The notes under the pieces were generated by a model, which did no database searches, had not been told where the DNA came from, and was given only the letters and a program-made list of their open reading frames with translations. From Pectinatus sottacetonis (lineage in GTDB: Bacteria; Bacillota; Negativicutes; Selenomonadales; Selenomonadaceae): 64,000 nt of DNA. The position numbers were made by a program, and so were the translations under genes. This document shows positions 1,907 through 39,738 of the stretch, in pieces; the stretch's first letter is position 1, and each line of letters opens with the position of its first letter. The DNA is taken from positions 1,250,001 to 1,314,000 of the forward strand of contig NZ_WIQK01000001.1 of the NCBI RefSeq assembly GCF_015732155.1. Direction: 5' to 3'.

Positions 1907-1908
1907 AA

Positions 1909-2134: not shown

Positions 2135-2138
2135 CATA
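2087..2138. repeat. 18-bp inverted repeat built from DnaA boxes
   Basis: Bases 2087-2104 are the exact reverse complement of 2121-2138, with a 16-base loop. The arms contain the DnaA boxes at 2091-2099 and 2126-2134. The right arm overlaps the left arm of the next hairpin, so only one can form at a time. Confidence 0.75.
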
Positions 2139-2182
2139 CAAGAAGACTGCTGCAAAATATGCAGCAGTCTTCTTGTATGTTA
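2132..2182 (-). terminator. 22-bp hairpin at the end of the minus-strand gene
   Basis: Bases 2132-2153 pair perfectly with 2161-2182 around a 7-base loop, immediately after the stop of the secreted-protein gene at 2185. There is no clear T-tract on either side, so it may be an RNA 3'-end or stability element rather than a classical terminator. Confidence 0.6.
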
Positions 2183-2184
2183 CA

Positions 2185-2865: not shown

Positions 2866-2895
2866 ACAAAATCCCCCGTTTCCTTTAATATTTCA

Positions 2896-3612
2896 TTATA
2901 ACGGATTCCGCTCAGGTGTTCCTGCTTTGCGCGGATAAAGTGCTGGTGTTACATTTATTTTATTTATATATATTATTGCCCTTACATCTTCAATACCTGG
3001 TAATGACACTGATTTCACCTTATATATTTTTCCTCCCAGAACATTTAATGCATTTTTTGCTTCTTCTATTTCTTCTTTATATACCTTTCCTTTTAAAGCA
3101 GCAAAAAAACCTCCTTGTTTAACGAATGGCAAAGCATATTCACACAATATAGGCATTCTTGCTACTGCCCGTGAAAGAGATATATCATATTTTTCCCGAT
3201 ATTTTTTTTGCCTAGCTATTTCTTCCGCTCTTCCATGAATAAACTCTATATCAGTAAATCCTATTGCTTCAACCGCATTTTGTAAAAATTTTATTCTTTT
3301 ATTAAGCGAATCCAGCAATGTCAATTTAATATGGGGATATTTTATTTTTAAAGGAATCCCCGGAAAACCTGCCCCGGTCCCAATATCTATTATTTTGCTA
3401 TCTGTTTTTATAATCTCATCATCACAAACACTCAATGAATCAATCATATGCTTTACAGCTACATCTACAGGAGCAGTTATTGCTGTAAGATTCATCTTTT
3501 TATTCCACTCTATTAAGACATTATAATATATATTAAACTTTTCCAACTGATCATTATTTAATTCTAGATCGAATTCCTCAGCTTTTTCCTGCATGCATTT
3601 AAAAAATTCCAT
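2896..3612 (-). CDS. rsmG: 16S rRNA (guanine-527-N7) methyltransferase
   Basis: A 238-residue RsmG (GidB). It methylates G527 of 16S rRNA with S-adenosylmethionine. The Rossmann SAM site [17 protein letters not shown] is present at about residues 75-92, together with the RAEEIAR and SRAVARM family motifs. The length is normal. The start overlaps the end of mnmG by 14 bases, implying translational coupling, and the order mnmE-mnmG-rsmG is conserved near origins. Confidence 0.96.
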
Positions 3613-5488: not shown

Positions 5489-5666
5489 TTTTGTTCCTCC
5501 AAATTATTAATCTCCCAGAGATTTTTTTGACATGCGCACCACTTACAAAATTTTTGTGGCAACTTCTCGGAAATACAGCAGCAAGAGCTATCATTATTAC
5601 CAAGCACTGCAGATAAACCCTTATTCTGCGCCTATAAAAAATCACTATATTATATCTTTAATTTAA

Positions 5667-7058
5667 TCACTTACCTATACAAAAATGACTAAATATCTCG
5701 TCTATTATATCTTCACTAACAGTATCGCCAATTATATCCCCCAATTGCTCCCATGCTGAACGCAGATCTATAACAATAAGATCCTCTGGGAGCTCATCAT
5801 CTAAACCTTTCACTGCATCCTTCAAATGTTGATCTGCCTTTTTCAATGCCGTAATCTGTCTTATATCATTAACATACTCACTGGCATGGCTGCCATTATT
5901 TCCCGCATAAACGGTATTTTTTATATCTTTTACCAGTTCAGCTAAACCCTTTTCGTTAATCGTTGATATATGGATAACTTTATTATCAGGACAAATTGCC
6001 TTTATATCACTTTCATCCCATAGCTGTGTTAAATCATTTTTATTTATGAGAATAAATGCTCTTTTACCTTTTATAAGGTGCAGTATTTCTCTATCGTCAT
6101 CATCTATGGGTCTTGCTCCATCAAATATTGCTAATATTAAATCCGCATTTTCAATATATGACCGTGATTTATTCACACCTATTTTTTCTACTTTATCATT
6201 AGTTTGTCTTATGCCTGCTGTATCAACTATACGTAGTGGTACTCCGCCGATGTCGATATATTCTTCTATACTATCTCTTGTGGTTCCTGGAACATCCGTC
6301 ACAATTGCTCTATCTGAATGCAAAAACACATTCAACAAACTTGACTTACCTACATTAGGTTTCCCTATTATTGCTGTAACAAGACCATCACGTAAAATCT
6401 TTCCTGTACGGGCAGTAGAGAGCATCTTTTTTATTCTTTCCTGCAGTTCATGGATTTTTTCCATAATCTGAATATTATCAATTGCATCTATTTCCTCTTC
6501 GGGAAAATCTATATTAGCTTCATAATGTGCTATGATTTCCAGCAAGGGGTCTCTTATCTGAGCTATATGAGAAGAAAATTGACCCGATAAATGACCGGCG
6601 GCTACTCTTAAAGATGCATCTGTCTTTGATTTTATTACATCCATGACAGCCTGCGCCTGTGCTAAGTCAATGCGCCCATTCAAAAAAGCTCGTTTTGTAA
6701 ATTCACCTGGCTCGGCAAGTCTTGCCCCCTTATCTATTAAAAGGCACAATATCCTTTTTAACGGCATCATACCGCCGTGACATTGAATTTCTACTACATT
6801 TTCCTTAGTATATGAATGAGGACCCCGCATCAGTAAGCATAAGGCTTCATCAATAATTTCATCTTTATTTATATCGATTATTTTTCCATAGACCGCACGA
6901 TATGACCGACGTTCAGACAATGTTCTTCCATTACCCGCCTTAAAAATTTGGTCAACAAGTTCTACAGATTTCACTCCGCTGACACGAATAATACCTATTC
7001 CGCCTTCTCCCGGGGGAGTTGCTATCGCTGCAATAGTATCATCAATTTCTTTAAACAA
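5667..7058 (-). CDS. mnmE: tRNA modification GTPase
   Basis: A 463-residue MnmE (TrmE), the GTPase partner of MnmG. The N-terminal formyl-THF-binding domain starts TIAAIATPPGEGGIGIIRVSG. The G1 motif GKPNVGKSS is at residues 232-240, with the G3 region DVPGTTRD...DTAG and the G4 motif NKND following. The C-terminus is FCIGK, the invariant CxGK motif. Translation starts at TTG (7056-7058) after a strong AAGGAGG. It lies 178 bases upstream of mnmG on the same strand. Confidence 0.97.
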   Translation of the reverse strand: MFKEIDDTIAAIATPPGEGGIGIIRVSGVKSVELVDQIFKAGNGRTLSERRSYRAVYGKIIDINKDEIIDEALCLLMRGPHSYTKENVVEIQCHGGMMPLKRILCLLIDKGARLAEPGEFTKRAFLNGRIDLAQAQAVMDVIKSKTDASLRVAAGHLSGQFSSHIAQIRDPLLEIIAHYEANIDFPEEEIDAIDNIQIMEKIHELQERIKKMLSTARTGKILRDGLVTAIIGKPNVGKSSLLNVFLHSDRAIVTDVPGTTRDSIEEYIDIGGVPLRIVDTAGIRQTNDKVEKIGVNKSRSYIENADLILAIFDGARPIDDDDREILHLIKGKRAFILINKNDLTQLWDESDIKAICPDNKVIHISTINEKGLAELVKDIKNTVYAGNNGSHASEYVNDIRQITALKKADQHLKDAVKGLDDELPEDLIVIDLRSAWEQLGDIIGDTVSEDIIDEIFSHFCIGK

Positions 7059-7094
7059 TTTTTCCTCCTTAATAAAATAATAAAACTGTTTTAT

Positions 7095-7103
7095 ATTATA
7101 ACA
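7095..7103 (-). promoter_or_regulatory. extended -10 promoter of mnmE
   Basis: The minus strand reads TGTTATAAT, about 37 bases upstream of the mnmE start and just past the terminator of the preceding operon. No clear -35 element. Confidence 0.5.
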
Positions 7104-7111
7104 TTTTGTTA

Positions 7112-7142
7112 AAAAAGCTGTCCCATTTTTGGACAGCTTTTT
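7112..7142 (-). terminator. terminator of the rpmH-rnpA-yidD-yidC-khpB operon
   Basis: AAAAAGCTGTCC (7112-7123) pairs with 7131-7142 over a 7-base loop, with T-tracts on both strands. On the minus strand it follows khpB and precedes the mnmE promoter. Confidence 0.85.
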
Positions 7143-7255
7143 GTAAACTTTATACTATTATTAAAATCATAGGCACAGCCATAAAATTATAATTTGTTAT
7201 TAATTAGCAACTTAACAATTATAATTCCTGTCATACAGTCAATAAAATAACAAGC

Positions 7256-7885
7256 TTACCTTTTATTATCTATAACAATTCTGCGATAAGGTTCCTCTCC
7301 ATCACTGTAAGTCATTATATCTGACTCATCCTGTAGAGCCATGTGAATTATTTTACGTTCATGCCGATTCATCGGCTCAAGAACTACTTTTTTCTTATGT
7401 GAACGCACTTTATCAGCAATACGCCATGCCAAATGTTTGAGTGTATCTTCCCTGCGACTACGATAATTCTCAACATCTAGAACAATATGTTTTCTATCTT
7501 CATCCAGCCCTTTATTAGCAACTAGATTAGTAAGATACTGAAGTGCATCAAGCGTCTGCCCATGTTTTCCGATCATAATTCCCATATTATCACCGCTTAA
7601 TTCAAATAAACAGCCAAAATCTATTTCCCGACGGTTTATATCCACGTCCATCTGTATGGCAGTAAATATTTTATTTAAAAATTCATTAGCCTTATCTTCC
7701 GGTGAAAGTTCTTTTACAGTAGCCCTTATCTTAGCTACCCTATTACCAATAATTCCCAAAAAACCTTTAGACGGTTCTTCTAATACTTCAAACAATACTC
7801 TATTTTCCGGCAAATTCAGCTCTTTAAGCGCATTTTGTTTTGCTTCATCTATATCCCTTCCAGATACTTCGATAACTTTTGCCAT
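7256..7885 (-). CDS. khpB: Jag/KhpB RNA-binding protein
   Basis: A 209-residue protein with the classic three-part layout. A Jag N-terminal domain (1-55: VIEVSGRDIDEAKQNALKEL... GFLGIIG) is followed by a KH domain with the GxxG loop in IGKHGQTLDALQYL (about 112-125) and a C-terminal R3H domain (RMNRHERKIIH...). In other Firmicutes it pairs with KhpA and affects cell division and envelope homeostasis. It follows yidC by 23 bases, the usual arrangement. Confidence 0.95.
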   Translation of the reverse strand: MAKVIEVSGRDIDEAKQNALKELNLPENRVLFEVLEEPSKGFLGIIGNRVAKIRATVKELSPEDKANEFLNKIFTAIQMDVDINRREIDFGCLFELSGDNMGIMIGKHGQTLDALQYLTNLVANKGLDEDRKHIVLDVENYRSRREDTLKHLAWRIADKVRSHKKKVVLEPMNRHERKIIHMALQDESDIMTYSDGEEPYRRIVIDNKR

Positions 7886-7908
7886 ATTTTCGAGAAGCCT
7901 CCTTTTTA

Positions 7909-8577
7909 CTACTTAGTTGGCTGTTCTTCATTGCGGTACATCCACCACTGCTGTAATACCTGCATAATATTCATTACTACCCAATACAAAACAAGGCCAG
8001 CAGCAAATTTAATACTGATCCAACCAATGAAAATAGGCATAGCAACCATCATTATTTTCATCTGTGCTCCTTGTTGAGCTGAAGTTTTAGTTGTCTGCCA
8101 CTGAGTTACAAATGTTGTTAATGCCGATAATATTGGTAGTATATATAGCGGATCTGGCATAGCTAAATTGGGAATCCACAAAAATGATGGATCATTTGTA
8201 AAATGTACACTTTGTAAAGCATAAAACATAGCCATCAAAATCGGCATCTGGGCAATTAACGGCAGACACCCTGCCAGTGGATTTACACCAGCCTCCTTAT
8301 ATATTTGTCCCATTTTTTGTTGCAGTTCCTGCGGTTTATCCTTATATTTCTTCTGTAATTCTTTTATTTTTGGTTGTAAATCCTGCATTGCCTTCATCGA
8401 TTTTACCTGTTTCACGGTAAGCGGGTACAATAGTACTTTAATAACTACGGTCATTAATATTATTGCTAAGCCATAGTTACCTACACCTAAAAGCTGCGTA
8501 AAATTATAAAAAAGACCTACGATAGTCTCTAATATTTTTACTATTGGTTGAAACAGTGAAGCAAAAAAACCACTCAA
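7909..8577 (-). CDS. yidC: membrane protein insertase YidC/Oxa1
   Basis: A 222-residue short-form YidC that inserts proteins into the cytoplasmic membrane. There is an N-terminal hydrophobic segment, then GNYGLAIILMTVVIKVLLYPLTVKQ, a coiled-coil loop with LQPKIKELQKKYKD, and the signature EAGVNPLAGCLPLIAQMPI followed by further membrane helices. The large periplasmic domain of proteobacterial YidC is missing and no lipobox is seen, as in other diderm Firmicutes. Part of the rpmH operon. Confidence 0.95.
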   Translation of the reverse strand: MSGFFASLFQPIVKILETIVGLFYNFTQLLGVGNYGLAIILMTVVIKVLLYPLTVKQVKSMKAMQDLQPKIKELQKKYKDKPQELQQKMGQIYKEAGVNPLAGCLPLIAQMPILMAMFYALQSVHFTNDPSFLWIPNLAMPDPLYILPILSALTTFVTQWQTTKTSAQQGAQMKIMMVAMPIFIGWISIKFAAGLVLYWVVMNIMQVLQQWWMYRNEEQPTK

Positions 8578-8607
8578 TTCATCACATCCTAATTCAATTA
8601 TTTTTGT

Positions 8608-8820
8608 TTATTTAACAGGATCATAGCCACCCTTATGAAAAGGGTTACAACGCAATATACGCTTCACAGCCATATAACCGCCTTTTCTTGCGCCATATTT
8701 TTTTATGGCAATAACCGCATATTCTGAACAAGTCGGTATATACCTACATGATGGCATCATCATTGGTGATATAAAACCGCGGTAAAAATATATTATACTA
8801 AGCAATATCTTTTTTCCCAA
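8608..8820 (-). CDS. yidD: membrane protein insertion efficiency factor YidD
   Basis: A 70-residue protein with the YidD signature [22 protein letters not shown] and [13 protein letters not shown]. It assists YidC-dependent insertion. The start is TTG (8818-8820), placed directly against the rnpA stop codon, so translation is probably coupled. Normal length. Confidence 0.95.
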
Positions 8821-9177
8821 TTATTTCGCTACTTTCCAAACTCCTGCCCTTTTGCATAACCTGCAAAAAGACCTGTTAATATCATTATAGTCAGCATTTA
8901 CTGCTGCTTTTCTTCCTACTAGTAATATACAAATATTTTCTTTTACATTTTGTTTGTTTTTTCTATATACTTCCCGTAAAATCCTTTTAATATGATTACG
9001 GGTAACCGCATTTCCTAATTTTTTTCCTGCCGCAAAGCCGATTTTATGATTAAACTTATTACTATATGCTATATGCATTACTATATAACGATCAGACAAT
9101 GACTTTGCATTCTTATAAATATGCTGAAATTCCTCGTTATACTGCATTATTATTTTTTTTGATAATTTCTGATTCAT
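8821..9177 (-). CDS. rnpA: ribonuclease P protein component
   Basis: A 118-residue RnpA, the protein subunit of the tRNA 5'-processing ribozyme. Family marks are KIGFAAGKKLGNAVTRNHIKRILREVYR, the basic RNA-binding helix, here with AAGKK where VSKK is usual. The ATG at 9177 is preferred over one at 9189 because GGAG sits 6 bases upstream of the former. It follows rpmH after a 119-base spacer that holds a strong GC-rich hairpin. Confidence 0.94.
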   Translation of the reverse strand: MNQKLSKKIIMQYNEEFQHIYKNAKSLSDRYIVMHIAYSNKFNHKIGFAAGKKLGNAVTRNHIKRILREVYRKNKQNVKENICILLVGRKAAVNADYNDINRSFCRLCKRAGVWKVAK

Positions 9178-28523: not shown

Positions 28524-28856
28524 TTTAACACTTCCTAATAAATTTTTTTATATATTTAGTTAATAAAAATTAATTAAATTATCTGATAAAAATAATAATT
28601 AAGAAGATAAGCTGGTTTTTTGTTAACTTATTTGATATTATAATAATAATTTTGATTATATTTTGATTAATATATTTCCTTAATATACTCAACAACTTAT
28701 CTTCTAATACTCAGTATAAGATGAAAAAATATAACTTATCTTTAAAATATTGCTATGTTTTTAGTTTAATATGTATAAAACTTCATAATATTGCTTTTTA
28801 TTAAACTTATAATAATATTCAGATTAAATTATTGAAATATATCAGGAGGAGTTTTG
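28524..28856. promoter_or_regulatory. divergent regulatory region between OPA transporter and AraC regulator
   Basis: A 333-base AT-rich gap. The 9-mer ACTTATCTT occurs at 28695-28703 and 28734-28742, and its near reverse complement AAGAAGATAAG at 28601-28611; 28602-28611 and 28696-28705 are an exact 10-bp inverted pair. Such repeats fit AraC-family binding sites. The regulator's ribosome site AGGAGGA is at 28844-28850. No gene is seen. Confidence 0.55.
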
Positions 28857-29708
28857 ATGTTGAAATATTTTTTTTCTAAAATAAATAAGAAAATTTTTGA
28901 ATGGAATACAAATCCACAACTATTATATTTTTGTAAGCTTTGCAGCAAGGTAGATATAATATCTAAAAAGCGTCTGCATAACGATGGTGCTGAAATTATA
29001 ATTATAAAAAATGGTGTGGGTAACTGTTCAATTGGTGGGAAAATATACAGCATAAAGAAAAATGATATTATTTTAATAAACACAAGTGTACTATATAGTA
29101 TTTCAGTTAAAAAGAATAAGAAAATAGATTTTTATATAATAGGAATTAAAAATATGCATATAAAAGGATATAAAAGAAATTGTTTTATTAACGAAAATCA
29201 GTCACCAATTATATCAAACACTGAAATGACTTTTTGGGTACAAAAAATTGTCATGATTTTGGAGTATTTGCTAAAAAATGGAATAAATTATAATATTGAT
29301 GAAGCGGCACAATATATTATGAAAGCTGTTTTAATAGTGATTAATAATTGTATGAAAGATGTTAAGTCGGGGACAGAAAAAGAAAAATATAACATTGGAT
29401 TAAGAATAAAAGAATATATAGACAGCCATTATTTGGAAGAAATAAATCTGACAAGTATAGCTGCTGCCCTAAAAATAAATATATACTACCTGTCACATAC
29501 ATTTAAAAAATTCATAGGACAGACACCAATGAAATATATTATAAATAAACGAATTGCCGAGGCGCAGAATTTATTAATTTCTACAGATCTAACGGTAACA
29601 GAAATAGCTTTAAAATGCGGGTATAATAATTCCAATTATTTTCAAGTAGTATTTAATAATATTGTGGGGATGACACCGGGAAAATATAGGAAAAACTGGC
29701 GGGAATGA
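28857..29708 (+). CDS. AraC-family transcriptional regulator
   Basis: A 283-residue protein. The N-terminal half resembles a cupin-like sensor domain (IIIKNGVGNCSIGGKIYSIKKNDIILIN). The C-terminal 100 residues carry two helix-turn-helix units: INLTSIAAALKINIYYLSHTFKK and LTVTEIALKCGYNNSNYFQVVF, followed by MTPGKYRKNW. The ATG at 28857 is chosen over an adjacent TTG because AGGAGGA is 6 bases upstream. Being divergent from the OPA-porin-phytase genes, it is the likely regulator of that set, responding perhaps to a phosphorylated or inositol compound (inference). Confidence 0.9.
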   Translation: MLKYFFSKINKKIFEWNTNPQLLYFCKLCSKVDIISKKRLHNDGAEIIIIKNGVGNCSIGGKIYSIKKNDIILINTSVLYSISVKKNKKIDFYIIGIKNMHIKGYKRNCFINENQSPIISNTEMTFWVQKIVMILEYLLKNGINYNIDEAAQYIMKAVLIVINNCMKDVKSGTEKEKYNIGLRIKEYIDSHYLEEINLTSIAAALKINIYYLSHTFKKFIGQTPMKYIINKRIAEAQNLLISTDLTVTEIALKCGYNNSNYFQVVFNNIVGMTPGKYRKNWRE

Positions 29709-29804: not shown

Positions 29805-29837
29805 ATCCCACAGGAGTTTTCTTTGTGGGTTTTTTTG
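29805..29837 (+). terminator. terminator of the AraC regulator gene
   Basis: CCCACA (29807-29812) pairs with TGTGGG (29824-29829), followed by eight T (29830-29837). It isolates the regulator gene from the PTS cluster. Confidence 0.85.
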
Positions 29838-29936: not shown

Positions 29937-31883
29937 ATGGTTATTCAAAATAAGAGAATTTTGCAGATATTAAAATTATTTAATGAGAATAACAAAATTA
30001 TGACAGGAAAATACCTGGCTGACTTGATAGGTGTGAGTAGTCGTACCATAAGGAGTGATATGAGGGAGACTGCCGAATTTTTAGAAGGAAGGGGTGTTCA
30101 TATAGTTTCTAAAACTGGCAGTGGATATGCTCTATTAATAGATAATGAGAAAAAATATGAAAAGTTTGTAGATGACTATTCGCTTAATAGTTCCAAAGCT
30201 TATAAGGGGACAAATATAGTTCCTGCTGATTATAATGATCGGATATCGTTTATTATTGCCAGAATTTTGCTGAATTCACTGCATAATAAGGTAGTGAGAC
30301 AGGAAGATCTTTCTGATGAATTATTTATCAGTTTATCTACATTGAAAAAATATCTTGGGGATATAAAGAAAAGTGTTGCCAGATTTAATTTAAAACTTAC
30401 AACTGATAGAAAAAACGGTATAAAAATAAATGGTGATGAAGCACAGATACGGTATTGCATATCTGAATATGTTTTTAATCGTGATGATCTGTTGAATTTA
30501 TCAAACAACAAGTTTTTTAATGACATATTTCCTAAACAGGAAATCGAGCTGGTAAAACATATTTTACTGAAAATAATTTTGAAACATAATATACATTTGA
30601 CTGATATTGCTTTTAAGAATTTACTTGTCCATATTATTATTACAATGCGGCGGGCTGGACGGGAAAATACAGTTGAATATACTGGGGAAGAGCGCAATAA
30701 ACTAAAAAAATCAGTATATTTTGTTCCAGCGGCAGAGATTCTTAATATAGTAGAAGAACAGCTGGGAATAGATATTAATAATGAAATATATTATTTGACG
30801 CAGCATTTTATAGCCAGTCAAAAGTTTATAGAATCATCTAAAAGCAGAAATAACTTTAAGAAATTGATCGGCAATATTTTATATAAGATTAAAAAAAATA
30901 TAGGAATTGATTTATCAGGCGATGAAGAGCTGCTTTCAGGAATAACCATACATCTTATAGCAGCAATAAGTCGGCTGCGTTTTAATATGAACATAAGAAA
31001 CGATATATTAAAATCAATAAAAAATAATTATCCGCTGGCATTTGATATGGCAGTAATGGCCAGTGAAATAATGGAACGGGAGGAAAATGTAAAAACTAAT
31101 GAAAATGAAATAGGTTTTCTTGCCATTCATTTTGGAGCGGCAATGGAACGTAATAAACTTTACAAAGATATGGGCAAAACGGCCATAATTGTCTGCGGCA
31201 CAGGTCTTTCTACTGCACTTTTACTGAAAAGTAAATTACAACGGAGGTTTGGCAGCATATTAAAGATAAAAAAAGTAATGAGCTGTTATGAACTTAATGA
31301 TGGAATTATAAATAATACCGACTTTATATTTACCACAGTGCCGATAAATCATATTAAATCAGCAAAGATAATACGTGTTGAACCTATAATGACAGAATAT
31401 GATCTTATAAAAACAGGTAAAAAAATAAATAACGCAGCAGAAAAAAATATTGTAAATTATGATGACTTTTTTAAAAAAAGATTATTCTTTTCAGAGTTTA
31501 AGGCGTTATCGGCAGAAACAGTAATAGAAAAAATAGCTGATGAAATGATAAAAACAGGTTATATTGATGAACATGTAAAAAAATCTATTTTTGCCAGAGA
31601 AAAAATGGCATCAACAGAATTTTCTAATTTAATAGCTATTCCGCATCCTTTAGAAAATAATATGGAAAAACCGTCTATAGCAGTAGCTGTATTGAAGAAA
31701 CCTATAATTTGGAACAAGGAAAGAGTCCAAATAGTGTTTTTGCTGGGGATACCACAAAATCTTCATAGTGTATGGGAACATATATTCAAAAAGATATATG
31801 ATAATTTCATAGAAGGCAAAAGTAGTGAAAATCTGATCAAATCACCTAAATTTGAAACATTGCTTGCTGAACTCAAGCAGTAA
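29937..31883 (+). CDS. PRD-containing PTS-controlled transcriptional activator
   Basis: A 648-residue protein of the MtlR/LicR type. It has an N-terminal helix-turn-helix (TGKYLADLIGVSSRTIRSDMRE at about 22-43), two PTS regulation domains (about 180-395), a galactitol-type IIB domain with the phospho-cysteine in CGTGLSTALL, and a C-terminal IIA domain with the histidine in IAIPHPLE. Phosphorylation by PTS proteins would switch its activity with sugar supply. It is the first gene of the cluster and likely activates it. The DNA-binding start argues for a transcription activator and not an RNA antiterminator. Confidence 0.92.
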   Translation: MVIQNKRILQILKLFNENNKIMTGKYLADLIGVSSRTIRSDMRETAEFLEGRGVHIVSKTGSGYALLIDNEKKYEKFVDDYSLNSSKAYKGTNIVPADYNDRISFIIARILLNSLHNKVVRQEDLSDELFISLSTLKKYLGDIKKSVARFNLKLTTDRKNGIKINGDEAQIRYCISEYVFNRDDLLNLSNNKFFNDIFPKQEIELVKHILLKIILKHNIHLTDIAFKNLLVHIIITMRRAGRENTVEYTGEERNKLKKSVYFVPAAEILNIVEEQLGIDINNEIYYLTQHFIASQKFIESSKSRNNFKKLIGNILYKIKKNIGIDLSGDEELLSGITIHLIAAISRLRFNMNIRNDILKSIKNNYPLAFDMAVMASEIMEREENVKTNENEIGFLAIHFGAAMERNKLYKDMGKTAIIVCGTGLSTALLLKSKLQRRFGSILKIKKVMSCYELNDGIINNTDFIFTTVPINHIKSAKIIRVEPIMTEYDLIKTGKKINNAAEKNIVNYDDFFKKRLFFSEFKALSAETVIEKIADEMIKTGYIDEHVKKSIFAREKMASTEFSNLIAIPHPLENNMEKPSIAVAVLKKPIIWNKERVQIVFLLGIPQNLHSVWEHIFKKIYDNFIEGKSSENLIKSPKFETLLAELKQ

Positions 31884-31910
31884 AATAATACAAAAGTCAG
31901 GAGGGGTTAA

Positions 31911-32396
31911 ATGATATCCCCCAATAGTCAATTATTGAATATGAATATAAGCTTAAATAATTTGTTTATAGATTTAGATGCTGAAAGTGATATGGATGCA
32001 ATTAAGAAAATGGCTGTTAATTTTAATAAGGAGGGAGTGGTGAAGAAAAGTTTTATAGGTGCTGTGCTGGAACGGGAAAAAAAGTTTTGTACGGGACTGC
32101 AGTTTGATGAAGCTGGTATAGCTATTCCGCATACTGATGTACAACATGTCAATTTGCCGGCAATAAGCATTGCTGTTTTAAAAAAACCATTGGTTTTTCG
32201 TGAAATGGGAATGCCGGACACAAAAATAAATGTAGAAATAGTATTTATGCTGGCAATTAAAACAGCTCATGGACAGGTGGAATTTTTACAGACATTGATG
32301 ACTGCGTTCCAAAAAAAAGGTATATTGAAAAGTCTGATAAAAAGTGAATCAAAAATAGAATTATTAAATAAATTTAAAAATATTTTAGGAAAGTAG
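31911..32396 (+). CDS. PTS IIA component, fructose/mannitol/galactitol family
   Basis: A 161-residue IIA domain protein. The phospho-histidine is H74 in GIAIPHTD, with LPAISIAVLKKP and FMLAIKTAHGQVEFLQ following. Start ATG behind AGGAGGGG. It passes phosphate from HPr to the IIB gene just downstream. The neighbours are of galactitol type, so it is GatA-like, but the sugar is not known. Confidence 0.92.
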   Translation: MISPNSQLLNMNISLNNLFIDLDAESDMDAIKKMAVNFNKEGVVKKSFIGAVLEREKKFCTGLQFDEAGIAIPHTDVQHVNLPAISIAVLKKPLVFREMGMPDTKINVEIVFMLAIKTAHGQVEFLQTLMTAFQKKGILKSLIKSESKIELLNKFKNILGK

Positions 32397-32406
32397 GAAA
32401 GAAATT

Positions 32407-32688
32407 ATGAAAAAAATTCTTGTAGCATGTGGAGCAGGTGTATGTACATCTACGGCGGTACTGAATAAGATGAAAAAAATATTGGATGATAATGGAATGA
32501 AGGGAAAATATGAATTATCACAATGCAAAGTGGCAGAAGTGCCGTCAAAGTCATCAGGTTTTGATCTATGTGTAGCAACTACAACCGTATCTGATGTAAA
32601 ATGTCCGTTTATTATGGGAATTCCTTTTTTAACAGGACGAGGTCTGGATGCTGTGGTTGAACAAATTTTGGCAGAGTTGAGAAAATAA
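32407..32688 (+). CDS. PTS IIB component, galactitol type
   Basis: A 93-residue GatB-like protein; the phosphorylated cysteine is C8 in LVACGAGVCTS. It receives phosphate from the IIA and gives it to the sugar bound by IIC. Sits 10 bases after IIA and 30 bases before IIC. Confidence 0.93.
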   Translation: MKKILVACGAGVCTSTAVLNKMKKILDDNGMKGKYELSQCKVAEVPSKSSGFDLCVATTTVSDVKCPFIMGIPFLTGRGLDAVVEQILAELRK

Positions 32689-32718
32689 TAATAAAAATCA
32701 TCAAAGAGGTGGGAATGA

Positions 32719-34095
32719 ATGGATAATATACTGGCTGGTTTTAAATTTATACAGGGATTAGGTCCGTCTGTAATGATGCCAATAATAATATTCGTTTTGG
32801 GAGTTATATTAAAAACGGGTATAGGAAAAGCAATAAGGGCAGGGTTGACTGTAGGTATAGGATTTATTGGACTGAATTTAGTAATAGGGATGATGAGTTC
32901 AAACTTGGGACCGGCAGCACAGCAAATGGTGGAAAGATATGGGCTGAGTTTATCAGTAATTGATGTTGGCTGGCCGGCAGCAGCAGCAATAGCTTTTGCT
33001 TCAACGATAGGCACGGTGATAATTCCTTTATGCTTGATTATAAATATTATTATGCTCTTGACTAATACAACACAAACTGTGGATGTAGATATATGGGATT
33101 ATTGGCATTTTGCCTTTACCGGAGCATTAGTCGCAATAATAACAGGAAGTCAGATATTGGGAATTGTAGCAGCTGTGTTGAATATGATAATAATAATGGT
33201 AATTGCTGATTACACGGCACCGGCATTGGAAAAAACTAATGGATTAACAGGAATTTCTCTGCCGCATGGTTTTAGTGGAGCATATGTGCCAATAGCACTG
33301 ATAATTAATAAGGTTATAGATTTAATTCCTGGTATCAGAGATATAAATATAGATCTTAATAAAATACAAGATAGATTTGGTGTTTTTGGCGAACCTATTT
33401 TAGTAGGAACGGTATTAGGATTGATTATTGGGATAGTGGCCGGCTATGAAATAGGGCCGGTGCTCACTTTAGGAATAACTCTTGGTGGTGTGCTGGTATT
33501 AATACCTAAGATGGCAGCTATGCTTATGGAAGGATTATTGCCGATATCTGATGCAGCTTCTGAATTTATTGAAAAACGATTCAAAAACAGAGGAAAAATA
33601 TATATTGGCCTTGATTCGGCAATAGGAATAGGGCACCCAATAACGTTAGCAGTTTCGCTTATTTTAGTTCCCCTGACAGTTTTTATGGCAGTGATCCTTC
33701 CGGGAAATAGAGTTTTACCATTTGCGGATCTGGCGGTTATTCCATTTATGTTTGTTTTGATAATTCCTATGGTAAACGGTAATGGATTCAGAGCGTTGGT
33801 AACAGGTATATTAACAATTGCGGCAGGGCTGCTGATAGCGACTAACTTATCACCATTGATAACTACAGCAGCGGTAAATGCTAAGTTTAAAATGCCGGAA
33901 GGAGCCATGGCAATCTCCAGTATATGTGATGGAGCCAATCCTCTTACATGGGCTATTGTTCACTTAAATGATATTGGCATTATAGGAGTGGGAGCACTAA
34001 CCGTGGTAGCTGTTATAATGGCAGTGATGAATAGAAAAAGGATAATAAAAGAAGCAAAGAAAATACATGGTGCAATTGACAATTCGGGTATGTGA
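32719..34095 (+). CDS. PTS IIC component, galactitol type
   Basis: A 458-residue membrane permease of the GatC family, with about 10-12 hydrophobic segments and the typical start FIQGLGPSVMMPIIIFVLG and MEGLLPISDAASEFI. It carries the sugar or polyol through the inner membrane while it is phosphorylated by IIB. The family includes transporters for galactitol, arabitol-like polyols and pentoses, so the substrate cannot be named. Confidence 0.92.
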   Translation: MDNILAGFKFIQGLGPSVMMPIIIFVLGVILKTGIGKAIRAGLTVGIGFIGLNLVIGMMSSNLGPAAQQMVERYGLSLSVIDVGWPAAAAIAFASTIGTVIIPLCLIINIIMLLTNTTQTVDVDIWDYWHFAFTGALVAIITGSQILGIVAAVLNMIIIMVIADYTAPALEKTNGLTGISLPHGFSGAYVPIALIINKVIDLIPGIRDINIDLNKIQDRFGVFGEPILVGTVLGLIIGIVAGYEIGPVLTLGITLGGVLVLIPKMAAMLMEGLLPISDAASEFIEKRFKNRGKIYIGLDSAIGIGHPITLAVSLILVPLTVFMAVILPGNRVLPFADLAVIPFMFVLIIPMVNGNGFRALVTGILTIAAGLLIATNLSPLITTAAVNAKFKMPEGAMAISSICDGANPLTWAIVHLNDIGIIGVGALTVVAVIMAVMNRKRIIKEAKKIHGAIDNSGM

Positions 34096-34099
34096 CAGC

Positions 34100-34570
34100 A
34101 TGAAAAAATATAATTGTTCTAAAAGAGAATTTATTTTTCAAATTATGTTCCCCTGTATAATTTCATTGGGCGGATTAATTATATTGACAGTAACTGCATA
34201 TATTTATAATGAATATATTATATTTTGCGGATTGTTAGGAATAGTGTGTTTATATACGATTTATAACACTTTTTTTACAAGTAGTTATCCTGACCAGGTC
34301 ATAATAACAGATAAGTATATCTTATTTGGGTTTATGGGACGGTTCCAAAAATATAGATATGACAAAATAAAGTATTTTAAAGTAAGAGAAGCAAGATATT
34401 CTAGAAATATGTTTATCAGGATAAATAAACCATTACTAGGAAAGGGAAGATTTTGGATAAATGCAAATGGTTTTAATGATAGTAAAGAATTATATGAATA
34501 TATAATTAATTTAGAATATAAAATACATCCGCGGTCATTAAAGAGTATTGCTAATAATCAGTATATATAA
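34100..34570 (+). CDS. small membrane protein of unknown function in the PTS cluster
   Basis: A 156-residue protein with two adjacent transmembrane segments (about 14-56), then a soluble part with SYPDQVIITDKYILFGFMGRFQKYRYDKIKYF that resembles bacterial PH-like membrane domains. The ATG at 34100 follows the IIC stop by 4 bases, so translation is probably coupled. I recognise no named family. It may be a membrane accessory of the transporter; this is inference. Confidence 0.65.
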   Translation: MKKYNCSKREFIFQIMFPCIISLGGLIILTVTAYIYNEYIIFCGLLGIVCLYTIYNTFFTSSYPDQVIITDKYILFGFMGRFQKYRYDKIKYFKVREARYSRNMFIRINKPLLGKGRFWINANGFNDSKELYEYIINLEYKIHPRSLKSIANNQYI

Positions 34571-34584
34571 ATGGGGGAGAAAAA

Positions 34585-35223
34585 TTGTTTGAACAAGAAA
34601 AAAGAAAAATTATTGAGACTGGCATAAAAATAGACAGATATGGATTAATTGCCCTTTCAGGGGGAAATATAAGCTGTCGTATGCCGACCGGTGAAATTTT
34701 ATTGACTCCTTCTGGGATGATATATGAAGAACTTACAGAAAAAGATATTTTAGTAGCGGATATCAATGGAAAAATATTGGAGGGCAAAAGACGTCCTTCG
34801 GTGGATACATTAGCATTAATATATATATACAGCAATATGCCGAAGGTAAATGCGGTTATTCATACTCATCAGCCTTATGCCACAGCAGTTGGACTTATTG
34901 CGGATGAACTGCCATGTATTCTTACTACTCTTGCAAATGCGGTGAAAGGCAGTGTTAAAGTCTGTCCGTTCAGTTCTGCTGCTAATATACAAATGGGAAA
35001 GGAAACAGTAAAAAATATTGGTGACAAATTGGCAGTAATATTAAAAAATCATGGAGTAATATCTGTGGGAATTGATTTAAAACAAGCTCTTTGTGCGTGT
35101 GTTTATTTGGAAGAAGCAGCCAAAACATATTTAGCAGCCAGAGCTGTAACGGCAGATATAGCCCAACTTACTGAAAAGCAGATAATTGAAGCAGTGGAAG
35201 TATTTAACCATTATGGGCAATAG
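34585..35223 (+). CDS. class II aldolase/epimerase family protein (FucA/AraD-like)
   Basis: A 212-residue zinc enzyme of the fuculose-phosphate aldolase and ribulose-phosphate epimerase family. Zinc ligands align as H93 and H95 (HTHQPYAT) and H156 (LKNHGVI), one residue off E. coli FucA. The catalytic Glu73 of FucA is replaced by D74 in RRPSVDT, which is the state of AraD epimerases; yet the epimerase acid (in THADYF) reads TLANAV here. So aldolase or epimerase activity cannot be decided. Start TTG (34585) behind GGGGGAG. Confidence 0.85.
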   Translation: MFEQEKRKIIETGIKIDRYGLIALSGGNISCRMPTGEILLTPSGMIYEELTEKDILVADINGKILEGKRRPSVDTLALIYIYSNMPKVNAVIHTHQPYATAVGLIADELPCILTTLANAVKGSVKVCPFSSAANIQMGKETVKNIGDKLAVILKNHGVISVGIDLKQALCACVYLEEAAKTYLAARAVTADIAQLTEKQIIEAVEVFNHYGQ

Positions 35224-35301
35224 CTGACGGATAGATATCATATTGCAGGTAAGTTAATACATTGACTAATAATTATACGTTGGAAAAAAGGGGTAATAAA
35301 A

Positions 35302-36144
35302 ATGCTGGTATCAACGAGGAAAATGCTCAAAGAAGCTAAGAAAAAGGGCTTTGCCATACCATCAGTCAATTTTGTCGATCAAATAACAGGCAAAGCACAA
35401 CTTGAAGTAGCTGAAAAATATGGATTGCCGCTGATCTTATCCTATGCGCAGGCACATAGGGCATATCAGAGTATAGAAGAAGCGGCACTGCTGGGGAAAT
35501 TTTATATAGAAAAAGTAAAAGTACCAGTAGCACTGCATTTAGATCATGGTATGGATATTGATTTTATAAAAAAAGCCATTGAAGCAGGTTTTACATCTGT
35601 TATGATCGATGCTTCGCAAAAAGGTATTAAAAAAAATATAGAAATGACAAAAGAAGTAGCAGATTTTGCCCATAAGCATAATGTAGTAGTGGAAGCAGAA
35701 ATAGGCCATGTTGGAACAGGTGTTAATGTCGGACAGGGAGAAACAGATGTAGATGATGATAGTATTTATACTACAGCAGAAGAAGCAAGGCAGATGTCTG
35801 AGCAGAGTGGAATAGACAGCCTGGCGGTTTCGATAGGCACAGCGCATGGTCTTTATAAAGGAACACCCAAGATAAATTTTGCAAGATTAAAAGAGCTGTC
35901 TGAAGCTGTAAAAATTCCGCTGGTATTACATGGTGGTTCTTCTTCTGGTGACAGTAATTTAGAGAAATGTGCTTTGAATGGTATTGCCAAGATAAATATA
36001 TATACAGATTTTGTAGTAAATGCTTATAAAAATTTACAGAATAATGATTATGATGATTATTTTGCAGCAAAAAAATTATTAGAAAATGGCATCAAAAATA
36101 CGCTGGAAAATTATTACAAAGTTTTCCATACGCAGAAAATATAA
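35302..36144 (+). CDS. class II ketose-bisphosphate aldolase (GatY/FbaA family)
   Basis: A 280-residue zinc aldolase. The catalytic Asp-His pair D81-H82 is in LHLDHGMD, with MIDAS, EAEIGHVG (E132), AHGLYKG (H182) and LHGGSS (H210). The family cleaves fructose- or tagatose-1,6-bisphosphate, or related ketose phosphates, to DHAP plus an aldehyde. Start ATG behind AAGGGG. The next gene's start lies just after its stop. The real substrate follows from the unknown sugar of the cluster. Confidence 0.9.
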   Translation: MLVSTRKMLKEAKKKGFAIPSVNFVDQITGKAQLEVAEKYGLPLILSYAQAHRAYQSIEEAALLGKFYIEKVKVPVALHLDHGMDIDFIKKAIEAGFTSVMIDASQKGIKKNIEMTKEVADFAHKHNVVVEAEIGHVGTGVNVGQGETDVDDDSIYTTAEEARQMSEQSGIDSLAVSIGTAHGLYKGTPKINFARLKELSEAVKIPLVLHGGSSSGDSNLEKCALNGIAKINIYTDFVVNAYKNLQNNDYDDYFAAKKLLENGIKNTLENYYKVFHTQKI

Positions 36145-36157
36145 AGGATGTGGCAGA

Positions 36158-36838
36158 ATGAAAAAAATAAGAATACCGTTTTTTATGGTAAATCCAAAAT
36201 CATATTTATATGGAGATAAATTACTGGAACTGGCGTTGGAAGCAGATAAAGAAGCAGAAAAAAGAAACTTTGATGTTTTTTTTACTGTACCATTTGTAGA
36301 TTTAAGAAATATTGCTGAACATACAAAAAACCTTATAGTTACAGCTCAGCATATGGAGCCATTGACTCCCGGACGAGGGATGGGTCATATAATTCCAGAG
36401 GCTTTGAAAGCAGCCGGTGCACAGGCAGTTTTTTTGAATCATGCAGAAAATCCCTTGAAAATGGCTGATCTCGTAAAAGATGTCAAAATGGCAAAGAAAT
36501 TAGGTTTATATACAGTTGTTTGTGCTGATTCTGTGGAAGAGGCTAAAGCAATAGCGATGATGGCACCTGATATTTTATTGTGTGAACCAACAGAGCTTAT
36601 AGGGACGGGTAAAGTAAGTGATAAATCATATATAAAACAAACCAATGAAGCCATAAAAAGTATAAACAAGGATATACTTATAATGCAGGCGGCAGGTATA
36701 AGCACTGGAGAAGATGTATACGAAACAATAAAAAATGGTGCAGATGGTACAGGTTGTACCAGTGGTATAGTGTGTGCAGATAATCCTAAAAAAATGGTAA
36801 AAGAAATGCTTGATGCGATAAGCAAAATTATTAATTAA
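36158..36838 (+). CDS. archaeal-type triose-phosphate isomerase homologue
   Basis: A 226-residue TIM-barrel protein whose sequence follows the short archaeal TpiA type and not the 250-residue bacterial one: AQHMEPLTPGRGMGHIIPEALKAAG, LLCEPTELIGTG and AGISTGEDV. Catalytic residues are present: K14 in MVNPKSY, H95 in LNHAENP and E143 in CEPTELIGTG. It may isomerise DHAP or a related C3 or C4 ketose phosphate made by the two aldolases. The start ATG at 36158 has AAAGGATG upstream; an in-frame ATG at 36086 inside the previous gene is rejected. Confidence 0.85.
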   Translation: MKKIRIPFFMVNPKSYLYGDKLLELALEADKEAEKRNFDVFFTVPFVDLRNIAEHTKNLIVTAQHMEPLTPGRGMGHIIPEALKAAGAQAVFLNHAENPLKMADLVKDVKMAKKLGLYTVVCADSVEEAKAIAMMAPDILLCEPTELIGTGKVSDKSYIKQTNEAIKSINKDILIMQAAGISTGEDVYETIKNGADGTGCTSGIVCADNPKKMVKEMLDAISKIIN

Positions 36839-36855
36839 ATAAAAGGGGAACAAAA

Positions 36856-37371
36856 ATGGCTGCATATATAGAAACAATTGAAGTATTATCAAATGGAAAC
36901 AGAGTGTCATACCATGAAATAACAAAGCAGGTACGTGAGATAGTCCAGAAAAGCAAAATAAAAAATGGCATAGTAGTGATAACATCAACACATACTACAT
37001 GTTCAGTTATATATGAAGAATATTCCCATGATCTTAATTATTGTGGTGATGAATATTTGCAAGTGGATTTTAATAATATTTTAGAAAAAATAATTCCACG
37101 CTGTCTGACGGAAAATCAATATTATCATCCCGGTCCTCAGCATGTGGCTTTTGGGGAAAAGGATTGTGAAAAATCACTGGTTCCTGACCGCCGGTCATTG
37201 TTAAATACCGAAGCTCATTTAAAAGCTTCTTTAGTGGGAGAAAGTGTAACTAGTGCAATAGAAAATGGGATTATACAGATAAATCAGGTAACAGGTTATT
37301 ACTATTTTATTGATTGGGATCAAAATCGTCCCAGAAAAAGAATATGTAAAGTAGCTGTTATGGGGGAATAA
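36856..37371 (+). CDS. YjbQ family protein (UPF0047)
   Basis: A 171-residue member of the YjbQ/UPF0047 family. Signatures are STHTTCSVIYEEYSHDL and, near the C-terminus, GIIQINQVTGYYYFIDWDQNRPRK. Some family members have secondary thiamine-phosphate synthase activity but the physiological role is unclear. It is longer than the usual 130-140 residues because of an insert around 75-115. Last gene of the PTS cluster, 17 bases after the isomerase, so probably co-transcribed. Confidence 0.82.
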   Translation: MAAYIETIEVLSNGNRVSYHEITKQVREIVQKSKIKNGIVVITSTHTTCSVIYEEYSHDLNYCGDEYLQVDFNNILEKIIPRCLTENQYYHPGPQHVAFGEKDCEKSLVPDRRSLLNTEAHLKASLVGESVTSAIENGIIQINQVTGYYYFIDWDQNRPRKRICKVAVMGE

Positions 37372-37414
37372 ATATTTTTTAATAAAAAGTATTAAAATAA
37401 GTTGATTTTATAAT

Positions 37415-37477
37415 AAAAAACTCTTTTAAGCTTAATGATAATAAGGTTTGTATCATTTTGCGGAAAAGAGTTTTTTT
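37415..37477 (+). terminator. terminator of the PTS cluster
   Basis: AAAAAACTCTTTT (37415-37427) pairs with 37464-37477, which runs into seven T. Inside the loop a second stem (AATGATA 37434-37440 with TATCATT 37451-37457) makes a nested hairpin. Confidence 0.85.
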
Positions 37478-37520
37478 GTGTAAACTAATAGTTTGAAAAG
37501 GTAATATACTAAGTGTAAAT

Positions 37521-37593: not shown

Positions 37594-38862
37594 ATGAGCC
37601 TAACTCTGGAAATAAAGTCCAATCACCCAATATCGGTTGAAGATCAGAAAAAATGGAATGACTGGCATTGGCAATTAAAAAATCGTATAATGACTTTGGA
37701 AAATCTGAAAAAACATATTAATTTGACAAATAATGAAACAAAAGGTGTACAAAATTGTTTAAAAAGTCTGCGAATGGCAATAACGCCTTATTATGCATCA
37801 TTAATAGATGCAGATGACCCCGAATGTCCGATAAGAAAACAAGCGGTGCCATCAGCAAAGGAACTTTCCCATTCTGTTTATGATTTAGATGACCCGTTGT
37901 CTGAAGATACTGATTCACCTGTTCCGGGTATAACACATCGTTATCCTGACAGGGTTCTTTTTTTGGTTACTAACCAGTGTTCTATGTATTGCCGTCATTG
38001 TACGAGAAGGCGTTATGCTGGTACGACAGATGAACCACGTTCTATAAAAGAAACTTTAGCTGCCATTGAATATATACGTGAACATGAAGAAATAAGAGAT
38101 GTATTAATTTCAGGAGGAGATCCATTTGTCCTAAACGATGAATATTTAGAAAATATTTTACAGCGGCTGCGTAAAATTGATCATGTGGAAGTAATAAGAT
38201 TTGGTACCAGGACGCCAGTAGTCATGCCGCAGCGAATAACAGATGATCTTTGTAATATGCTCAAGAAATATCATCCTATATGGATAAATACACATTTTAA
38301 CCATCCTAAAGAAATAACACCTGAAACTAGGAAGGCATGTGAAAAGTTGGCAAATGCAGGAATTCCTGTGGGGAATCAAACTGTTTTATTAAAAGGGATA
38401 AATGATTGTCCTTATATAATGAAAAAGCTGGTACAAAAATTAGTGCAGATACGAGTTCGTCCTTATTATATGTATCAGTGTGATCTATCTAATGGCATAG
38501 AGCATTTTAGAACGCCGGTTTCTAAAGGAATTGAAATAATGGAAATGCTGCGGGGGCATACTTCGGGATTTGCAGTACCAACATATGTGATTGATGCACC
38601 AGGCGGCGGCGGAAAAATACCTGTAGGACCGCAATATCTTATTTCAATGTCGGAAAGTAAGGTAATATTAAGAAATTATGAAGGAATCATAACTACTTAT
38701 GATGAACCTAAAAACAAAGAAACACATTGCCATCATTGTGGGATTTGCGGTGAAAAATCAGCTGATTTACGTAAAACAGGTTTAGAAAAATTATTTTGTG
38801 AGAAAAAGAGAAGCCTGGTTCCCAACGATAATAATCGCCGTAACCGTCGTAGTAATTTTTAA
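37594..38862 (+). CDS. ablA: L-lysine 2,3-aminomutase
   Basis: A 422-residue radical-SAM enzyme (KamA/AblA) converting L-alpha-lysine to L-beta-lysine with PLP. The iron-sulfur motif C129-x3-C133-x2-C136 is in QCSMYCRHC; the PLP lysine is probably K341 in PGGGGKIPVG; zinc ligands C379, C382, C385 are in CHHCGIC. Normal length. The acetyltransferase gene follows by 15 bases, which marks the N-epsilon-acetyl-beta-lysine osmolyte pathway rather than lysine fermentation. Confidence 0.94.
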   Translation: MSLTLEIKSNHPISVEDQKKWNDWHWQLKNRIMTLENLKKHINLTNNETKGVQNCLKSLRMAITPYYASLIDADDPECPIRKQAVPSAKELSHSVYDLDDPLSEDTDSPVPGITHRYPDRVLFLVTNQCSMYCRHCTRRRYAGTTDEPRSIKETLAAIEYIREHEEIRDVLISGGDPFVLNDEYLENILQRLRKIDHVEVIRFGTRTPVVMPQRITDDLCNMLKKYHPIWINTHFNHPKEITPETRKACEKLANAGIPVGNQTVLLKGINDCPYIMKKLVQKLVQIRVRPYYMYQCDLSNGIEHFRTPVSKGIEIMEMLRGHTSGFAVPTYVIDAPGGGGKIPVGPQYLISMSESKVILRNYEGIITTYDEPKNKETHCHHCGICGEKSADLRKTGLEKLFCEKKRSLVPNDNNRRNRRSNF

Positions 38863-38877
38863 TTTGGGGAGATTTTT

Positions 38878-39738
38878 ATGCAGATGAATGCGGTAGTAAA
38901 TAAAAATTTTTATATAGAAAAATCATCTCAACAGTTGGAAGTAAAGCTGTTAGTAGATTTTATAAACAGGCGGTTAAAAGTGGTAAAGTATCGCTGTAGT
39001 GACTATGATATCTTATGCCGGGAACTTTATCGCACAGCCCAAAAATATAAATTGGAAAAAATTTTGCTTATAGCTAAAAGTGATGACTGGAAAAAATTTT
39101 TTGTTAAAAGTTTTGTTTTAGAAGCACTTCATCCGGCTTTTTATGATGGTGAAGATGGTTTTCATATGTCATTGTTTTTAGCGGCAGATAGATTTAAAGC
39201 AGAAAATTATATACTGCATAAGAAAATATTGCAGACTGTTATAAGTCATCCTAAAAGTAAATTAAAACCTTTGGGACAGGATTTTTCTATAGATAGTGTG
39301 GCCAGAAATGATATAAAAGAATTGACAGAACTTTATAGTAAAATATTTAAAACTTATCCAACACCAATAAATGATCCAGATTATTTTAAAAAGATGCTGC
39401 ACAAGGACTATATTTTTAAAGTGGTTCGTTATAAAGGTAATATAGTAAGTGCGGCGTCACTGGATATAAATATGACCGATAAAAATGCGGAACTTACTGA
39501 TTGTGCAACACTTAAAGATTATGGCGGAAAGGGCCTCATGGCTAACATAATAAAGGCATTGGAACAGGAAGCAAAACAGAAGGGCCTGCGGACAATATAT
39601 ACAATTGCTAGAGCATGTTCCATAGGAATAAATAAAGTGTTTTATAACCAGGAATATGAATATTGCGGTCAGCTGATAAAAAATTGTGATATCTGTGGAC
39701 AATTTGAAGATATGAATGTTTGGTCAAAAATTATATAA
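38878..39738 (+). CDS. ablB: beta-lysine N6-acetyltransferase
   Basis: A 286-residue protein whose C-terminal half is a GNAT acetyltransferase (about 140-286: ELTELYSKIFKTYPTPI, LKDYGGKGLMANIIKALEQEA) of the AblB/YodP family. It acetylates beta-lysine to the compatible solute N-epsilon-acetyl-beta-lysine. The C-terminal CGQLIKNCDICGQFEDMNVWSK is typical. Forms an operon with ablA. Confidence 0.9.
   Translation: MQMNAVVNKNFYIEKSSQQLEVKLLVDFINRRLKVVKYRCSDYDILCRELYRTAQKYKLEKILLIAKSDDWKKFFVKSFVLEALHPAFYDGEDGFHMSLFLAADRFKAENYILHKKILQTVISHPKSKLKPLGQDFSIDSVARNDIKELTELYSKIFKTYPTPINDPDYFKKMLHKDYIFKVVRYKGNIVSAASLDINMTDKNAELTDCATLKDYGGKGLMANIIKALEQEAKQKGLRTIYTIARACSIGINKVFYNQEYEYCGQLIKNCDICGQFEDMNVWSKII

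Follow-up and report, generated by a model that had tools for sequence, protein, structure and literature searches.

A conserved pairing of an archaeal-type triosephosphate isomerase homologue with long-form YjbQ in a phosphotransferase operon of Pectinatus sottacetonis

What does a bacterium do with a sugar that enters through a complete phosphotransferase system (PTS) when the operon that encodes the transporter brings along neither a kinase nor a dehydrogenase? The question is raised by nine genes that run in the same direction (+) over positions 29937–37371 of a 64,000-nucleotide stretch of Pectinatus sottacetonis DNA (contig NZ_WIQK01000001.1, positions 1,250,001 to 1,314,000; the whole stretch is referred to here as the window). 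The operon ends with a homologue of triosephosphate isomerase (TIM) and a long form of YjbQ, and it is this TIM–YjbQ pair, rather than the particular PTS, that recurs from locus to locus. The nine genes are:

29937..31883, +: PRD-domain activator (HTH_11, Mga HTH, two PRDs, a weak IIB-like region and a C-terminal EIIA_2; by Pfam)
31911..32396, +: PTS EIIA (Pfam PTS_EIIA_2; nearest model galactitol IIA, under its cut-off)
32407..32688, +: PTS EIIB (Pfam and NCBIfam-type models; nearest model galactitol IIB, under its cut-off)
32719..34095, +: PTS EIIC of the GAT family (Pfam EIIC-GAT, 308.6 bits)
34067..34570, +: small protein of 167 amino acids, a membrane protein by reading, family unassigned; 29-nt overlap with the IIC gene
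34585..35223, +: class II aldolase/AraD-superfamily protein (Pfam Aldolase_II; profile match and residue alignment)
35302..36144, +: class II ketose-bisphosphate-type aldolase (Pfam F_bP_aldolase; profile match)
36158..36838, +: archaeal-type TIM homologue of the YjbQ-paired clade (profile match and residue alignment)
36856..37371, +: long-form YjbQ (UPF0047) of 171 amino acids (profile match and predicted fold)

The open reading frames of the window agree with the coordinates first given for this operon, with successive intergenic gaps of 27, 10, 30, −29, 14, 78, 13 and 17 nt; the TIM start was set at 36158, the start position of its relatives. The original prediction had described a complete PTS locus for a sugar it could not name, and the listed family matches bear this out, with no kinase or dehydrogenase family among them for any of the nine proteins (for the AraD-like protein, among 25 of 29 NCBIfam families). 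Most of its gene annotations also stand by Pfam, the exception being the FucA/AraD-like protein as an aldolase, to which we return below. As a second genome of the same genus (G301, locus L037) carries the identical nine-gene set in the identical order, the set is not a chance assembly. Identity between the two is 74% for the PRD activator, 65% for IIA, 85% for IIB, 88% for IIC, 58% for the membrane protein – which has no Pfam match and, among the neighbourhood loci listed, is matched only in L037 – 76% for the AraD-like protein and 71% for the aldolase, but only 57% for TIM and 45% for YjbQ.

These two genes are nevertheless the most constant partners in a wider comparison. Of 299 phylum genomes, 9 carry long YjbQ, as do 33 of 380 class genomes. 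It stands beside an archaeal-type TIM at all nine phylum loci, the window included, and at 26 of the 28 class loci read with flanks (those newly numbered among 39 places; five of the 28 – G320 C14, G299, G300, G301 and G315 – overlap the phylum set). The two class loci without the pairing are L062, which has no TIM, and L072, where the contig ends just upstream of YjbQ. Reciprocally, YjbQ adjoins all eight places with a window-type TIM, found in 7 of 31 relatives, and both genes are present in 22 of 27 wide loci, L003 – where the aldolase lies between YjbQ and TIM – being counted as together rather than adjacent. When the species genome collection was searched with the window TIM, within a limiting pattern, five loci were returned, and the nearest named relatives of the pair are from Propionispira. 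Short YjbQ keeps other company: none of 30 control loci (the PF01894 places with the 30 highest scores, flanks being short in a few) has a match to the window TIM, Fba, AraD/FucA, Rpe or HxlB (E 1e-6, about 1.5 kb). In the plasmid collection, 160 records carry a YjbQ relative (E 1e-12), 152 being from Enterococcus, and 16 carry a TIM relative (E 1e-5); at least seven records are common to both lists among the matches listed, and each list holds five Shinella records, so that most YjbQ-bearing Enterococcus plasmids are without such a TIM. The pair is a conserved unit, yet not an obligatory one, since both YjbQ-only loci and TIM-only loci (in Liquorilactobacillus) exist.

The two proteins also vary together. 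For 20 selected loci (19 rows for YjbQ, 14 for Fba and 7 for IIC), the pairwise distances of TIM and YjbQ correlate with r = 0.76 over 171 pairs, which are not independent of one another; the corresponding values are 0.43 for TIM–aldolase, 0.23 for YjbQ–Fba (91 pairs) and −0.01 for YjbQ–IIC (21 pairs). Trees from the same set, with both tested clades picked after the identities had been inspected, place the window YjbQ with Propionispira (100/99), a grouping with G301 being rejected (p = 1.5e-5), and likewise the window TIM with Propionispira (91/86, not starred; grouping with G301 rejected, p = 2.9e-4). The window aldolase groups with G301 (99/99), and its grouping with Propionispira is rejected (p = 0.001). 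Because TIM and YjbQ side with Propionispira and the aldolase with its own genus, the simplest account that these sequences suggest is that the pair was exchanged as a unit within an operon otherwise retained.

The surroundings in which the pair is found fall into several architectures, here labelled A to H together with a few individual loci:

A: GAT PTS, AraD-like protein, aldolase, TIM, YjbQ (window, L037)
B: GAT PTS, aldolase, TIM, YjbQ (L003, L026, L027, L034 and plasmids L041 and L042); L003, from Atopobacter, comprises PRD, YjbQ, aldolase, TIM, GAT PTS
L040: aldolase, TIM and YjbQ, preceded by a divergent regulator of the sugar-binding kind; the stretch lacks a GAT PTS
C: two Propionispira loci with aldolase, TIM, YjbQ, preceded in L002 by a mannose/sorbose-type PTS and Rpe
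D: sorbitol-type PTS near aldolase, TIM, YjbQ, partly on the opposite strand (L028, L029, L030, L036); a DRL-type oxidoreductase in L028 and L029 (Pfam)
E: GAT-like PTS, YjbQ, Rpe, HxlB, with no TIM or aldolase match (L046–L049 by annotation; in L045 only part of this set is annotated); L047 and L048 add a SIS protein, whose nearest models in L047, below cut-off, are KdsD/GutQ
F: TIM, YjbQ, HxlB, Rpe (L031 by NCBIfam; L032 and L033 by resemblance)
G: Shinella, with a short-chain dehydrogenase/reductase (SDR), an epimerase-like protein, TIM, YjbQ and an FGGY kinase
H: FucA/AraD-like protein, TIM, YjbQ (L039)
L035 and L038: TIM–YjbQ by a GntR-type regulator, with the aldolase behind in L035

The suggestion that GAT-type IIC, archaeal-type TIM and YjbQ be sought together is supported, as they co-occur in L003, L026, L027, L034, L037, L041 and L042 as well. 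What the reading as a single PTS locus overlooked, while right about the PTS and the co-occurrence, is TIM–YjbQ as a separate unit: its neighbours include PTSs of the galactitol, mannose/sorbose and sorbitol types and, in Shinella, a sugar kinase, so that what the loci have in common is the pair itself and not this PTS. Aldolase and epimerases differ from locus to locus. A stepwise carbon walk shared by TIM, YjbQ and HxlB was also considered; it fits several architectures, and only its TIM–YjbQ part was retained. Two Enterococcus faecium plasmids of architecture E (L046 and L049, 4911–10749 in each) carry PTS, YjbQ, Rpe and HxlB as an operon, and two Shinella megaplasmids (L043 9358–13768 and L044 9356–13783) both hold TIM and YjbQ, with a gene for a DhaL-type kinase nearby.

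The TIM homologue is, as the original prediction held, of the archaeal type (PRK04302, 190.1 bits over a cut-off of 132; best solved match 1hg3). In this it resembles the archaeal enzymes, as it does in the catalytic Lys, His and Glu: K14, H95 and E143 are retained in all 48 cassette TIM rows, several of which are near-identical to one another, and P13 is invariant. It differs from them at Thr75 and Ser96, both of which are replaced in all 48 rows – T75 by M in 41, L in 3, I in 2 and V in 2, and S96 by A in 45 and V in 3. We take these two residues, which adjoin the active site, to be important in TIM. Both are present in the aligned Pyrococcus woesei TIM, and of two haloarchaeal rows both have T75, with S96 in one and P in the other. 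The retained catalytic residues and their replaced neighbours suggest that catalysis has probably been kept and specificity changed. A second, canonical TIM is encoded elsewhere in the same genome, so the operon TIM need not serve glycolysis. An intermediate state is seen in the two Liquorilactobacillus TIMs without YjbQ (L004 9998–10684 and L005 10001–10684), where Ser96 is kept and Met75 is present.

The partner of this TIM is a YjbQ protein. It matches PF01894 (79.8 bits, cut-off 27), narrowly misses TIGR00149 (63.2 of 67.75), and has an AlphaFold model (pLDDT, the predicted local distance difference score, of 90.5) that aligns with nine solved YjbQ structures at Z 15.9–19.9, the next best value being 4.8 (VIA-align, chains compared); at least eight YjbQ sequences have been solved. 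H46, T47, E55, D71 and H121 are shared with E. coli YjbQ. Like the UPF0047 family in these respects, the long form is set apart by its length of about 170 residues and by H96 (24 of 24 rows), H58 and D59 (each in at least 90% of the 24). YjbQ as such is widespread, occurring in 10 of 14 control genomes and 76 of 101 phylum genomes, with a single PF01894 place in the window's genome; the long form lies near TIM, PTS or sugar-phosphate genes at every locus read except L072, where the stretch ends. In the portion available of a 2021 review (PMC7954711), YjbQ is still marked as a protein of unknown function that relieves a block at pdxB in E. coli, the route being unresolved there. Such relief is weakly compatible with small phosphorylated substrates for YjbQ.

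Could YjbQ simply be a thiamine phosphate synthase that supplies cofactor and has nothing to do with the sugar? The family name and the near match to TIGR00149 speak for this, and the available text of PMC5613172 merely names YjbQ as a thiamine condensation gene. The genome, however, already has two TMP-TENI (ThiE/TenI-type) genes, an Rfam search of the whole window gave no match, and it is the long form that co-varies with TIM, short YjbQ being without such a context at all 30 control loci; we regard the thiamine role as extremely unlikely.

The original prediction counted two working aldolases, and here it is not supported, because the AraD-like protein has lost the FucA-type residues. Aligned with FucA and AraD, it keeps His93, His95 and His156, and a C-terminal YGQ is present; at the site of FucA Glu73/AraD Asp76 it has Asp, FucA Tyr113 is replaced by Thr, and in both the window and L037 Asn takes the place of AraD Asp120. 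We presume catalytic roles for FucA Glu73 and Tyr113 and for AraD Asp76, Asp120 and the C-terminal Tyr. With scores well under both equivalog cut-offs (FucA 108.6 of 400.25, AraD 93.5 of 389.1), the protein is not a FucA or an AraD of the standard kind, and it is probably an epimerase-like enzyme rather than a second ordinary aldolase. Its relative in L039 has the FucA-type Glu where the window has Asp. The class II aldolase, for its part, passes the cbbA subfamily cut-off (245.4 bits against 215.6).

The transporter's component types and GAT-family IIC are those of the galactitol PTS (GatABC) with GatY, and the matches to GAT-type IIC and GatY-like aldolase models would suit a diverged galactitol or tagatose pathway. 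All four galactitol-specific cut-offs are missed, however – GatA 70.1 of 139, GatB 53.4 of 95, IIC 475.8 of 542.2 (TIGR00827) and GatY 220.4 of 383 – and the operon, unlike that system, matches no dehydrogenase family and no kinase family either, which makes such an origin very unlikely. The absence of a match to any known pathway, claimed at the outset, holds in that the literature searched (in part, and by titles and abstract openings) has no description of this gene set; PMC10101011, in its accessible portion, concerns E. coli, fructose and N-acetylgalactosamine PTS and does not account for the locus. On the reading that we favour, the operon would provide inducible uptake, through its PTS, of a short ketose, with a tetrulose or pentulose as the likeliest substrate.

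How might such a ketose be processed? The closest parallel is the LerI–DerI pair of tetritol catabolism. As far as its available text goes, PMC10733421, on a synthetic formaldehyde-assimilation cycle, reports that LerI, a TpiA homologue, converts L-erythrulose 1-phosphate to the 4-phosphate, that DerI converts this erythrulose 4-phosphate to erythrose 4-phosphate, and that several dihydroxyacetone phosphate (DHAP) aldolases yield erythrulose 1-phosphate as a side activity; its authors propose examining the co-occurrence of such aldolases and isomerases. By analogy, TIM and YjbQ would perform the two carbonyl shifts of LerI and DerI and the aldolase would connect them to DHAP, a proposal that we find plausible while stopping short of calling it probable. 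Judging by its family, IIABC would import the sugar and leave a ketose phosphate, one stereocentre of which the AraD-like protein may correct. TIM and YjbQ would then, as a pair, walk the carbonyl along the chain: TIM would convert the 2-keto form into the 3-keto form and back (carbons numbered starting at the phosphate), in the manner of LerI acting on L-erythrulose 1-phosphate, and YjbQ would make the next shift, from C3 to C4, as DerI does when making erythrose 4-phosphate. The class II aldolase would provide the link to DHAP, either by cleaving a ketose 1-phosphate or by condensing DHAP with an aldose phosphate. We infer every one of these reactions and substrates, above all YjbQ as an isomerase.

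DerI is, we assume, an RpiB-type enzyme, and TIM does adjoin RpiB in Rhizobium etli (L125), Agrobacterium (L126, with Fba and fructose bisphosphatase) and Listeria (L130, with dihydroxyacetone kinase genes), while RpiB lies close to TIM in Klebsiella (L127); by eye, at least 12 records among the rows listed, R. etli and Listeria included, have the two side by side. L125–L128, with bacterial-type TIM, were picked from 60 of 301 records, and L130 for its known TIM–RpiB adjacency. YjbQ is proposed for the DerI role because the two partners were not detected at each other's loci: RpiB is found at none of the 27 YjbQ loci and nowhere in the 64-kb window (tblastn, E 1e-5), and the window YjbQ at none of L125–L128 (tblastn), of which L125–L127 hold RpiB; L130 was outside this test. 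Like the LerI–DerI and TIM–RpiB pairs, then, the window combines a TIM-family isomerase with a small partner, and an aldolase is present; unlike them, its TIM is archaeal-type, the partner is YjbQ and not RpiB, and entry is by a PTS and not a kinase. The Shinella loci, where TIM–YjbQ is accompanied by an SDR, an epimerase-like protein and an FGGY kinase, count in favour of the two-shift scheme.

A simpler use for an aldolase beside TIM would be direct cleavage of a PTS-made ketose 1-phosphate to DHAP and an aldehyde, with TIM as a spare isomerase of DHAP and glyceraldehyde 3-phosphate and YjbQ handling or detoxifying the aldehyde or a side product. An exchangeable DHAP aldolase would also suit L039, where the FucA/AraD-like protein with its FucA-type Glu occupies the usual place of Fba by TIM–YjbQ. 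Against this, a normal TIM is already in the genome, no aldolase match accompanies TIM–YjbQ in Shinella or L031–L033, and the replaced active-site neighbours are common to the cassette TIMs; we consider direct cleavage possible, if somewhat unlikely.

Alternatively, the substrate could be a pentulose or 1-deoxypentulose phosphate, on which YjbQ and TIM would shift the carbonyl towards the phosphate, from C4 through C3 to C2, before the aldolase splits a pentulose 1-phosphate into DHAP and glycolaldehyde or acetaldehyde. The Rpe and AraD-like accessories match pentulose 5-phosphate epimerase families best, and in some loci a sorbitol-type PTS is accompanied by an oxidoreductase of the DRL type, which we take to be DXR-like. 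One of these loci, L029, carries E1 alpha/beta and E2 genes as well; these are missing from the window operon, as is DRL, and we judge the pentulose route distinctly unlikely. In L029 itself (828–9069), the sorbitol-type PTS, DRL oxidoreductase, E1 alpha/beta and E2 genes adjoin aldolase–TIM–YjbQ; the E1/E2 genes are acetoin-dehydrogenase-like by reading, and the locus could serve to break down methylerythritol, or some other branched polyol, with a 1-deoxyketose phosphate as intermediate.

Several observations weigh against the two carbonyl shifts as proposed for TIM and YjbQ. YjbQ is without TIM in 5 of the 27 wide loci (four annotated with Rpe and HxlB, one with HxlB), and architecture E means that it can act without TIM; in the class locus L062, too, it stands beside a sorbitol PTS with no TIM. 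Conversely, TIM is without YjbQ in the two Liquorilactobacillus loci, of which L004 falls within the cassette tree, and N12, which we take to be an important site in TIM, is Gly in 5 of the 48 rows. YjbQ presumably has a thiamine phosphate synthase side activity, with which the model name agrees, and its fold offers no functional hint, because beyond YjbQ itself Foldseek and VIA-align gave only weak rows (VIA-align Z no higher than 4.8), among them many capsids. LerI and the cassette TIM are no more than distant relatives: for the solved L-erythrulose-1-phosphate isomerase 11ef the match has E = 1.2e-4, and the window TIM shares 24% identity with the RpiB-adjacent TIM of R. etli. The RpiB comparison loci were hand-picked from many rows and need not be tetrulose loci; one of them, Shinella L128, has TIM without RpiB. 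If the PTS product is a ketose 1-phosphate, cleavage by the aldolase could suffice, leaving no need for TIM–YjbQ. Finally, in the synthetic cycle of PMC10733421, FbaA failed in vivo to sustain growth as an erythrulose-1-phosphate synthase, and FucA and RhaD worked.

As for its boundaries, the operon lies between two hairpins:

29807..29829, +: terminator-like hairpin upstream of the operon (terminator scan; z = −2.32)
37410..37482, +: terminator hairpin with a 13-bp stem and T run (folding against shuffles; z = −6.35)

The first separates the operon from an upstream AraC-type regulator gene (28854–29708). The second, the strong terminator predicted to close the nine genes, escaped the simple terminator scan and was recognised by folding against shuffles (−22.9 kcal/mol; none of 200 shuffles equally good). 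Downstream, 37594–39738 holds AblA (lysine 2,3-aminomutase, 646.5 bits, cut-off 525.4) and AblB (beta-lysine acetyltransferase, 263.4 bits, cut-off 205.1), whose product we take to be the osmolyte N-epsilon-acetyl-beta-lysine.

The most far-reaching interpretation – that YjbQ represents a new fold-family of sugar-phosphate isomerase replacing RpiB as the partner of TIM and forming, with a DHAP aldolase, a natural erythrulose-phosphate type module – is in our view rather unlikely; if true, this module would be the very co-occurrence that the designers of the synthetic cycle suggested seeking. A YjbQ subfamily that keeps to the side of a single isomerase in catabolic operons poses a concrete, testable biochemical question, and its answer would add a PTS-fed pathway undescribed in the literature searched and, possibly, enzymes with which rare ketose phosphates could be made or used.

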